Below, one piece after another: positions 10,967 through 14,282 of a stretch of 47,092 nucleotides of DNA. Position 1 is the stretch's first letter; every line of letters begins with the position of its first letter. The stretch covers positions 1 through 47,092 of the forward strand of contig JAQWBI010000012.1 of NCBI GenBank assembly GCA_028706475.1. The letters run 5' to 3'. Both the position numbers and the translations under genes were made by a program. Below the pieces are notes generated by a model. That model searched no databases and was not told where the DNA came from. It was given only the letters and a program-made list of their open reading frames with translations. The DNA comes from Candidatus Cloacimonadota bacterium (GTDB lineage: Bacteria; Cloacimonadota; Cloacimonadia; Cloacimonadales; Cloacimonadaceae).

Positions 10967-12739
10967 TTAATCTGTAACTGTATTTATTTTGTCACTAAGA
11001 TAAACCCAGCGGCTGAAAGCAATCTCGTGTTTTGTGTTGTAGTCATCTATCTCTTTGGCGATGATGGCATATTCATCGTGCTTGAGGCCGCTTTTCCCTA
11101 GTTCTTCCTCGATCCGCAACAGCTCGGCTTCGATTTTCTCGATCTCAGATTCAATTCTTTCGTACTCTCTCTGTTCCTTGTAAGACAATCCTTTGTTTTC
11201 TCGTTTCGGTTTCCAGATTTTTGGCTTTTCACAATCTTCAGTTTCTTCTTCCTGATAGCGTTTTACCAATAGATAATCGGAATAGTTACCGGCAAACTTT
11301 CGGAGCTTGCCATTCTCGAAGATTATCAAATAGTCCACTGTCCGATCCAGGAAATAGCGATCGTGGGATACAATTAACAGGCATCCTTTGAAGGCATCCA
11401 GATAATCCTCTAAAATCTCCAGACTGGGGATGTCCAGGTCGTTTGTGGGTTCGTCCAAAATGATGAAATTTGCGCCGAACAACAGCGATTTTAACAGTTG
11501 TAGACGTTTGCGTTCTCCTCCGGAAAGTGAAGAGAGTCGCTGTTGTTGCATCTTGCCGTCGAAGAGGAAGCGATTGAGCATCTCTGTAGCAGAGACCTTG
11601 CTTCCATCGGCTGTACGGATACTTTCGGCATATTGAGCTATGTAGTCGTAAACACTCATCATTAAGTTCAGGTCTTCTTCTTCCTGCTTATAATAAGCAA
11701 AATGAGTGTTCATACCAACTTTGATGCTGCCGATATCGGGCTTCTCTTCACCGGTAATCAAGCGTAGAAGCGTGGTTTTTCCACATCCATTCGGACCCAA
11801 TATTCCGATGCGTTCCAAGGGCTGAAAGTGATGATCGAGGTCTTCGAACAATGTGTTACCATCGTATGATTTGCTAAGCTTATGCAGTTCCAGGATGGTC
11901 TTTCCTAAACGATCGGTTTGGAAAGAGATATCGAGCTCTTTATTTGAAATCAGGTAGCTCTTGCTTAATAGTTCTTTCACCCGTTCCACATGGTTTTTGG
12001 GCTTTGTGGCTCTTGCTTTTGCACCTCTGGCTAGCCATGCCAATTCCTTGGAGAGCTGCGCTTGGCGGCGGGTTTCCTTGCATTTGCTATCTTGATCCCG
12101 CAAGATTTTGCCCTTCAGATAAGCACTGTAGTTCCCTTCATAAAAGAAAAACTGTTTATTTTCTATGTTCAGGATCTGATTACATACGGTATCCAGAAAA
12201 TAACGATCGTGGGTAACGAATATCAGCGCTATTTTACTGGAGATTAAGGTGTTTTGCAACCATTCGATGCTGTCCAGATCAAGATGGTTTGTAGGTTCGT
12301 CCAGCAGAAGCAGGTCTGGTTCTTGCGCCAAGGCCTTGGCTAGGTCGGCTTTGCGGCGTTGGCCTCCAGAGAGAATGCCCATTTTGGTGTCATAAAGCTC
12401 CATACCCAAGCGACTGAGGATTGCCTTGTAGTGATGTTCTTCTTTCTGGATATCCTTTTGTTTAGGTAACACATGTTCCAATACTGTGCACTCAAGATCA
12501 ATCGGAGCATTTTGTTCCAGATAGGCGATTTTGAGATCTTTACGAGTCGTAATGTTACCGCGGTTGGCTTGGATAATGCCGGCCACTACTTTCAGGAGAG
12601 TGCTTTTACCACATCCATTTACACCTAGTATGCCCAGTTTGTCTTCAGCGTGAATGCCAAAGGATGCATCCTCGATGACAACTTTGTCACCGAAAGCGAC
12701 ATGGATGTTCTCTGCAGTAAGGATTACTTCGTTTGCCAT
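10967..12739 (-). CDS. ABC-F family ATPase (Uup-like)
   Basis: A 590-residue soluble protein with two ABC ATPase domains and no membrane segments, typical of ABC-F factors that act on the ribosome. Domain 1 has Walker A GVNGCGKS (39-46), signature LSGGQRRK and DEPTNHLDL. Domain 2 has GPNGCGKTT, LSGGERKR and DEPTNDLDI. A charged coiled-coil C-terminus (about 510-585) is typical of the Uup subgroup. The start is fixed: an in-frame TAA lies two codons upstream and the next Met is far inside. The ATG is 6 bases after the 3' end of the tRNA-Arg gene, so the only Shine-Dalgarno-like bases (AGGGA) are in the tRNA acceptor stem. Confidence 0.93.
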   Translation of the reverse strand: MANEVILTAENIHVAFGDKVVIEDASFGIHAEDKLGILGVNGCGKSTLLKVVAGIIQANRGNITTRKDLKIAYLEQNAPIDLECTVLEHVLPKQKDIQKEEHHYKAILSRLGMELYDTKMGILSGGQRRKADLAKALAQEPDLLLLDEPTNHLDLDSIEWLQNTLISSKIALIFVTHDRYFLDTVCNQILNIENKQFFFYEGNYSAYLKGKILRDQDSKCKETRRQAQLSKELAWLARGAKARATKPKNHVERVKELLSKSYLISNKELDISFQTDRLGKTILELHKLSKSYDGNTLFEDLDHHFQPLERIGILGPNGCGKTTLLRLITGEEKPDIGSIKVGMNTHFAYYKQEEEDLNLMMSVYDYIAQYAESIRTADGSKVSATEMLNRFLFDGKMQQQRLSSLSGGERKRLQLLKSLLFGANFIILDEPTNDLDIPSLEILEDYLDAFKGCLLIVSHDRYFLDRTVDYLIIFENGKLRKFAGNYSDYLLVKRYQEEETEDCEKPKIWKPKRENKGLSYKEQREYERIESEIEKIEAELLRIEEELGKSGLKHDEYAIIAKEIDDYNTKHEIAFSRWVYLSDKINTVTD

Positions 12740-12745
12740 ATATTA

Positions 12746-12822
12746 TGGCGTCCCTGAGGCGATTCGAACGCCTGACCTTCACCTTCGGAGGGTGCCACTC
12801 TATCCAGCTGAGCTACAGGGAC
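12746..12822 (-). tRNA. tRNA-Arg (anticodon CCG), CCA encoded
   Basis: A complete cloverleaf reads on the minus strand. The acceptor is GTCCCTG paired with CAGGGAC, followed by G and an encoded CCA (12746-12748). The D arm is GCTC/GAGT with loop AGCTGGATA. The anticodon stem has loop CTCCGAA, giving anticodon CCG. The T arm is AGGCG-TTCGAAT-CGCCT. The 27-43 pair is G-A, a mismatch, and 10-25 is a G-U wobble. It lies between thyX and the ABC-F gene. Confidence 0.96.
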
Positions 12823-12827
12823 GCAGA

Positions 12828-12862
12828 ATGATATAGTCATAAGTTTTGGCTATCGGCTTTCT
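12828..12862 (-). promoter_or_regulatory. Possible promoter for the tRNA-Arg / ABC-F unit
   Basis: A perfect TTGACA hexamer occurs on the minus strand directly after the thyX stop, about 40 bases before the mature tRNA 5' end. A T/A-rich TTATGACTATATC follows, but the best -10 match is at 19-20 bases, longer than ideal. The position suits a tRNA promoter; the -10 assignment is uncertain. Confidence 0.35.
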
Positions 12863-12872
12863 GTCAACAGAT

Positions 12873-14282
12873 TTACTTGAAACAGCTTTTACCACAAAGC
12901 ATACGGGACGAATTCGGAGCATGCTTTTTCACAATTTTGCAGATAGCTTCCGAGACCTCGCGAATCTCCCATTGTGCGTGTTCATCGCTGCGTAGGCGAA
13001 TAAAATGGTACAACTCTCTGCAGTTCATCTTCACATATACCTTGCAAATGGAGCCATTTAGTTTTAAATAGTCTTGAACTGCTTCAATGGCTTCTGGGAT
13101 CATGTCCGAAAAGCTGATACATTCCTTGATCATGCTATTCCACTGATCTTCTCTACCAATCATTTTGATGGCTTCCGGAATCAGGAAATTGCCAGAATAG
13201 ACCTTCTTCTTCAGGATTGTGCATTGACGGTGTCTCTTGAATTGAGCCCAGCAGGATTCGCTGATAAAGAGCTCAAACTCAAAATCTGCTGCTTCAAAGG
13301 CGCGGGGTACCTTGTGCCAGCTCTTCATACCGGTAAATACCTGTTGCCATAGCTGTTCTTTAGACAATCTCGGTAAGCGGGAGACTAGCTCCAGGTTGTC
13401 TTGCCAAGAGAGTTCGCTTTCAGGATAAATAAGAGCAGCAAGGATCTGGTCATCAGCGTTTTTCGGAGCGGAGATTAATCTGGCTTTGTTTTCCAGATCT
13501 ATCGCTGCTAGCCAAGGTAATTCCTGTTGTAAGAATCCGCTGAATCCTACTTTATTTACGTCTACCTTCCCTAAGTATCCATCAGATTCTGTGTGACGAA
13601 TCAAAGAGGGGCAGATAGGTTTTACTTCTTTGATGATCAGCTCTTTAAGTTCCAAGGCTTCCTTTAGCGGGATGGTCGCTAATCTGCGTAAAAGCTGTTC
13701 CAAACTGCGGGCATTAATGGTGATGCCCATTTGAGTCTTTGTGGCAAGGGGGAGTATGTAGCGGGCGTCTTCTTTGGCCAGGCATTCCCTGTCCTTTGGT
13801 TTCATATCGGCTTTGTGGATTATATAATACTCATTCAAGGCATTATAGCTGGTTTCATACTCTGTAAACAGACGGTCCATCAAGTCGCAGTACTGTTGCT
13901 TAAGAGCAGTTCTGCGGCTAAGTTCCTTGGGAATCAGGTAGTCCTTGCTAAAGGTCACGTAACGCTGCGACTTCTCTGTGAATGAAGCCAATCGACTGCG
14001 CTGAACACTCTCGGTGAGTAAACGTGAGACATCAATCAGATCCAAGTTGAACACAGCATGCTCTGCAATGGAGGCATGCCCCATTTCGTAGATAATATTC
14101 TCGTTTGAGCTACGGGCTTTTTCCACTGCGCTCAGAGCTTCCTTACGTAAAGTATCCACGCGCTTGTTGCTACGCGAAATGCGGGCATAAGCAGCGGAGA
14201 TTACTTCAGGAGTGGCATTTTTTGCCTTCAGCTCTGCGATCAGTCCTGCATCGATGTTGTATCCTGCAATAATCAGTTTCAT
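12873..14282 (-). CDS. thyX: Tandem-domain ThyX-type thymidylate synthase
   Basis: A 469-residue protein, about twice a normal ThyX (220-250). ThyX makes dTMP from dUMP with FAD and methylene-tetrahydrofolate. The N-terminal half has RSRLASFTEKSQRY (95-108), matching the family motif RHRxxSxNExSxRY with the His replaced by Ser. The C-terminal half has FKRHRQCTI (350-352 = RHR) and MNCRELYHFIRLRSDEHAQWEIRE (419-442), the usual dUMP-binding end, but no SxRY element. Each half therefore keeps a different part of the site, as if two subunits were fused. Six bases separate it from deoC upstream, which also acts in deoxynucleotide metabolism. Activity is likely but not proven, since both halves have diverged. 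Confidence 0.85.
   Translation of the reverse strand: MKLIIAGYNIDAGLIAELKAKNATPEVISAAYARISRSNKRVDTLRKEALSAVEKARSSNENIIYEMGHASIAEHAVFNLDLIDVSRLLTESVQRSRLASFTEKSQRYVTFSKDYLIPKELSRRTALKQQYCDLMDRLFTEYETSYNALNEYYIIHKADMKPKDRECLAKEDARYILPLATKTQMGITINARSLEQLLRRLATIPLKEALELKELIIKEVKPICPSLIRHTESDGYLGKVDVNKVGFSGFLQQELPWLAAIDLENKARLISAPKNADDQILAALIYPESELSWQDNLELVSRLPRLSKEQLWQQVFTGMKSWHKVPRAFEAADFEFELFISESCWAQFKRHRQCTILKKKVYSGNFLIPEAIKMIGREDQWNSMIKECISFSDMIPEAIEAVQDYLKLNGSICKVYVKMNCRELYHFIRLRSDEHAQWEIREVSEAICKIVKKHAPNSSRMLCGKSCFK

Follow-up and report, generated by a model that had tools for sequence, protein, structure and literature searches.

A tRNA-Arg(CCG) gene directly ahead of an ABC-F gene in Cloacimonadota: a candidate for near-leaderless mRNA formation by tRNA processing

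The window, by which we mean the whole stretch of 47,092 nt that was analysed, is part of a Cloacimonadota MAG of 2.06 Mb that is 97% complete. On its minus strand a thyX gene, a tRNA-Arg(CCG) gene and a gene for an ABC-F ATPase follow one another (Table 1), and the junction between the last two reads ...CAGGGAC-G-CCA-TAATAT-ATGGCAAAC. ARAGORN and a reading of the minus strand agree with a preliminary description of this DNA that the ATG at 12739 lies six bases past the encoded CCA, and that an in-frame TAA (12745-12743) stands two codons before it. No other ATG, GTG or TTG occurs between this TAA and the first ABC domain, and the start of the ABC-F gene is therefore beyond doubt as far as sequence can tell. 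The ThyX protein has roughly double the common length, matches the ThyX profile in two places and is possibly a fused tandem.

Table 1. Features around the tRNA-Arg(CCG)/ABC-F junction (positions in the window).
Feature	Positions	Strand	Source
ABC-F ATPase, 590 aa, two ABC domains; ATG at 12739	10967..12739	-	
Possible hairpin GCCAUA-AUA-UAUGGC, discriminator-CCA pairing with start codon in unprocessed transcript	12735..12749	-	
TAATAT, entire intergenic gap; probable minimal A/T-rich tRNA 3′ trailer	12740..12745	-	
CCA of tRNA-Arg(CCG)	12748-12746	-	
tRNA-Arg(CCG), CCA encoded	12746..12822	-	ARAGORN
AGGGA, 3′ strand of acceptor stem; proposed earlier as Shine-Dalgarno site, probably none	12751..12755	-	
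TTATGAC, probable -10 region, weakly conserved, position uncertain	12836..12842	-	inference
TTGACA, -35 box of probable tRNA-Arg promoter, 39 nt before the tRNA, just past the thyX stop codon	12862..12867	-	
ThyX (FAD-dependent thymidylate synthase), 469 aa, upstream	12873..14282	-	TIGR02170, 145.5 bits

The ABC-F protein passes the NCBIfam model NF000355 for ribosomal-protection-like ABC-F proteins (431.7 bits, cut-off 380). It misses the equivalog cut-offs for EttA (NF008775, 444.3 against 599; TIGR03719, 440.1 against 806.75) and for Uup (NF050005, 420.5 against 900), and, among proteins of solved structure, EttA chains come closest to it in sequence. Feedback on the gene through CGG codons was considered and rejected; there are only four of these codons, none of them close to the start, and so there is no sign of autoregulation.

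Copies of the ABC-F gene were gathered from named records as well as from 60 relatives. In every one of the 31 distinct loci of the same family that reach far enough, tRNA-Arg(CCG) lies immediately ahead of the gene and on its strand, whereas none of the 18 loci in other families of the order has a tRNA ahead of the orthologue. Given these counts, the linkage is not a matter of chance. An ancient, order-wide trait can be rejected, because outside the family tRNA-Arg(CCG) is located elsewhere, among unrelated neighbours. Most simply, the linkage would have arisen a single time, no later than the base of the family, and been retained since. The flanks upstream of the tRNA differ between genera, and the ThyX side is not conserved family-wide.

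The length of the gap is less constant. The preliminary description had looked to a conserved short junction in related genomes for support; the arrangement itself is kept throughout the family loci, but the exact 6-nt gap is found in only six of 12 congeners, as TAATAT, ACTTAT, TTTATA, GCATTT and, twice, TTAATC. Most species of the family have a gap of 3-22 nt, within an overall range of 3 to 163 nt; one other genus has 3 nt, and much of another has 11-14 nt. Further genera have gaps of 40-163 nt, so that a leader of almost no length is not a constant trait. The longer gaps, too, mostly lack a Shine-Dalgarno (SD) motif. All 44 tRNAs found in the genome encode their CCA, and behind these the GC content is 22% over the first seven bases and 44-51% further on, with a sharp edge between the two. 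This edge indicates that the gap is the usual minimal, A/T-rich tRNA trailer, at the end of which the ABC-F reading frame begins, as does that of a second gene described below.

The TTGACA upstream of the tRNA is identical in 30/30 distinct upstream regions of the family, at a distance of 35-43 nt from the tRNA 5′ end, and its surroundings diverge. Because it stands amid otherwise divergent sequence, tRNA-Arg very probably has its own promoter. The proposed -10 region was placed by local A/T richness and by a G that is favoured 23 nt downstream of TTGACA. On the minus strand, the promoter scan found no promoter-like site near the ABC-F ATG or between the tRNA and the reading frame, and the terminator scan found none between tRNA-Arg and ABC-F. 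The locus thus has the features of a mixed tRNA-mRNA operon, namely a shared strand, a tRNA promoter, no intervening terminator and a conserved gene order. Nor is there a -10 box a few nucleotides ahead of the ATG, as in a leaderless gene made by transcription, since TAATAT abuts the ATG directly. In two sister species with a 40-nt gap (L014 and L015), a promoter-like TTGGCM-17-TATAKC ends four nt before the ABC-F ATG and would itself yield a leaderless mRNA.

Own-gene statistics were drawn from about 368 kb of the genome. No 16S gene was found in the MAG and a standard anti-SD was therefore assumed. SD-like 4-mers precede 36/64 unambiguous starts, compared with 7/64 control stretches, and so the organism uses SD sites at about half of its genes; 44% of these starts have no such motif. 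Among the tRNA-linked ABC-F genes of the family the motif is present in 4/31 (absent in 27/31, the window included), compared with 12/17 unlinked orthologues. The Fisher p value of 9e-5 for this difference overstates the evidence, because the loci are not phylogenetically independent and the counts reflect perhaps one evolutionary change. Nine further junctions from the family also lack an SD. Genes behind other tRNAs of the same genome keep an SD-like site (29 nt after Leu-UAG, 18 nt after Ser-CGA), and tRNA-adjacent genes at gaps of 18-30 nt mostly retain such sequences. No genome-wide signal of leaderless genes, in the form of a TA-rich -10 near the ATG, emerged from 28 SD-less own genes; leaderless initiation is thus not shown to be common in this genome.

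By the promoter scan and the SD motif count, the junction holds neither a promoter nor an SD, in keeping with the preliminary description. That description placed the only candidate, AGGGA, within the 3′ strand of the acceptor stem, and this position (12755-12751) is correct; its proposed role as a ribosome site inside the tRNA does not hold. AGGGA lies 11 nt from the ATG in the window. All family members carry it as invariant acceptor-stem sequence, at distances to the ATG that run from 3 to 163 nt, and it thus cannot be a positioned ribosome site. Moreover, it is locked in the stem, and its predicted pairing with the assumed anti-SD (-4.8 kcal/mol) is weaker than the own-gene median of -5.4. 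We therefore rejected it as a true SD.

The same arrangement is found a second time in this genome. A HAD hydrolase gene (G000:C35:4865-5564; L144, L193) starts seven A/T bases past tRNA-Gly(GCC) with no SD. All congeners found with upstream sequence have a gap of 6-10 nt, and a member of another genus (L162) has one of 7 nt, in each case without an SD. Among HAD orthologues outside the family, an SD is kept in 5/9 and a tRNA lies upstream of none. In 11 congeners we surveyed GTTCGA-type tRNA-like 3′ ends whose CCA is followed by an ATG within 3-9 nt. Of the 38 junctions of this kind, only tRNA-Arg(CCG)/ABC-F and tRNA-Gly(GCC)/HAD, plus one singleton, have long conserved ORFs; a reversed control pattern gave 4 matches against 39. 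As two unrelated genes show the same change, the pattern is more than a single accident. A 318-codon ORF six nt after tRNA-Ser(CGA) was seen in one species only (L210, genome G005).

Taken together, these data suggest, with a probability of roughly 0.55, that ABC-F is the second cistron of the tRNA-Arg(CCG) transcription unit and that tRNA processing leaves a near-leaderless mRNA translated independently of an SD. Gene order, strand, the conserved promoter sequence, the family-wide linkage, the missing SD and the A/T-rich trailer are seen in the sequence itself. The co-transcription of tRNA and ABC-F, and a translation that is SD-independent and near-leaderless, are well supported inferences; the place of the trailer cut and leaderless initiation itself are predicted. 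The TTGACA promoter just before the tRNA would give a single tRNA/ABC-F transcript, from which RNase P would free the tRNA 5′ end. An endonuclease would then cut the A/U-rich trailer past the CCA; RNase E/G is encoded (a match of 468 bits), and RNase E of E. coli processes tRNA precursors by direct entry (PMC3985628). The product would be an ABC-F mRNA with a leader of about 0-6 nt, as predicted from the junction sequence, which lends support to the earlier proposal that 3′ processing of the tRNA would leave an almost leaderless mRNA. Initiation would proceed without SD pairing, as in leaderless or near-leaderless mRNAs. Recombinant tRNase Z of T. maritima cuts immediately past the CCA (PMC3161902), and since all of the tRNAs here encode CCA, a cut of that type would leave a 6-nt leader. 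Unlike in T. maritima, however, the tRNase Z of this genome is uncertain, the best match being a 245-aa MBL-fold protein in which only the N-terminal part of the family is matched, below the cut-off.

The strongest rival is plain operon compaction, in which ABC-F would be co-transcribed with the tRNA and ordinary SD-independent initiation in an A/U-rich, unstructured context would take place on any RNA, with no special role for processing. The many own starts that lack an SD motif fit this explanation, as do SD-less ABC-F starts at gaps of 50-163 nt and a start-region accessibility that does not differ significantly from that of other genes, whether the RNA is processed or fused. However, at gaps of 3-12 nt the folded tRNA would fall within the ribosome footprint and an unprocessed RNA should be a poor template, and the scarcity of SD motifs coincides with tRNA linkage in two unrelated genes. 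We regard compaction as a serious though minority explanation.

A more elaborate scheme would make expression gated by processing. Here the start codon would pair with the discriminator-CCA for as long as the tRNA is attached, in a hairpin that stacks on the acceptor stem. The cut would free the start codon, and ABC-F output would report on tRNA-Arg maturation, a tie that the preliminary description had put forward as possible. A compensating change preserves the 6-bp stem between the window (GCCAUA/UAUGGC) and L013 (GCCAUU/AAUGGC), and mean start-region accessibility is 0.61 for processed and 0.50 for fused RNA. Against this, the hairpin has a predicted energy of -5.3 kcal/mol alone and a z of only -1.2 against shuffles, L012 and L019 do without the pairing although their gap, too, is 6 nt long, the pairing follows from Met-Ala, which is a common protein start, and the HAD junction (TCCA, then ATGAC) has no such pairing. 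The start-codon half of the stem, NTGGC, is present at 11/30 family junctions; with 19/30 lacking it, a masking switch formed by this hairpin would be at best a local feature, and gating of this kind is improbable. Less probable still is an ABC-F promoter and leader of its own with incidental tRNA adjacency, for which the element in L014 and L015 speaks, since in the window, where the scan found none and there is no room, such a promoter would fall inside the tRNA, RNA from the weak TTCGAA-17-TAATAT seen in the sequence would begin within the ORF, and the linkage is conserved family-wide together with an invariant tRNA promoter.

Near-leaderless translation behind a processed tRNA, the reading we prefer, can be set beside several known systems. 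Bacterial mixed tRNA-mRNA operons are known, for example thrU-tyrU-glyT-thrT-tufB of E. coli, and the likeness is that a tRNA promoter drives a downstream translation-related gene from whose transcript the tRNA is cut out. However, tufB has an ordinary leader, whereas here the gap is short in most species and usually SD-less. In bacteria, leaderless mRNAs have mostly been described as arising at a transcription start site. Such transcripts are common in some bacteria, such as mycobacteria (PMC4633059) and P. acnes (PMC3848588), and resemble the proposed ABC-F mRNA in that they begin with the start codon, or very nearly so, and have no SD; their 5′ end is a transcription start, whereas here it would be a processing site. 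A literature search of open-licence papers found no precedent for a leaderless mRNA made by processing behind a bacterial tRNA, and, because the search covered such papers only, its novelty is provisional.

There is also a likeness in layout to tRNA punctuation in animal mitochondria, where a coding region abuts a tRNA, excision would give a leaderless or near-leaderless mRNA, and no SD is present. ABC-F likewise starts directly at a tRNA 3′ end, across a 6-nt gap, with no SD ahead of its start. Unlike the mitochondrial case, this is a bacterium with SD sites at about half of its genes, only two conserved junctions were found, and the cut site is a predicted one. We tentatively propose, as a possibility that we rate well below the reading of the ABC-F locus itself, that tRNA punctuation has a bacterial counterpart in Cloacimonadota, in which 3′ maturation of tRNA-Arg(CCG) and tRNA-Gly(GCC) would make the 5′ ends of leaderless mRNAs and ABC-F output would depend on tRNA processing. 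If tRNA excision does make leaderless mRNAs here, bacteria would share an expression strategy with mitochondria, and a translation factor would have its level tied to the supply of tRNA without a dedicated regulator. The tRNA-Arg/ABC-F and tRNA-Gly/HAD junctions offer clean and directly testable cases of it.
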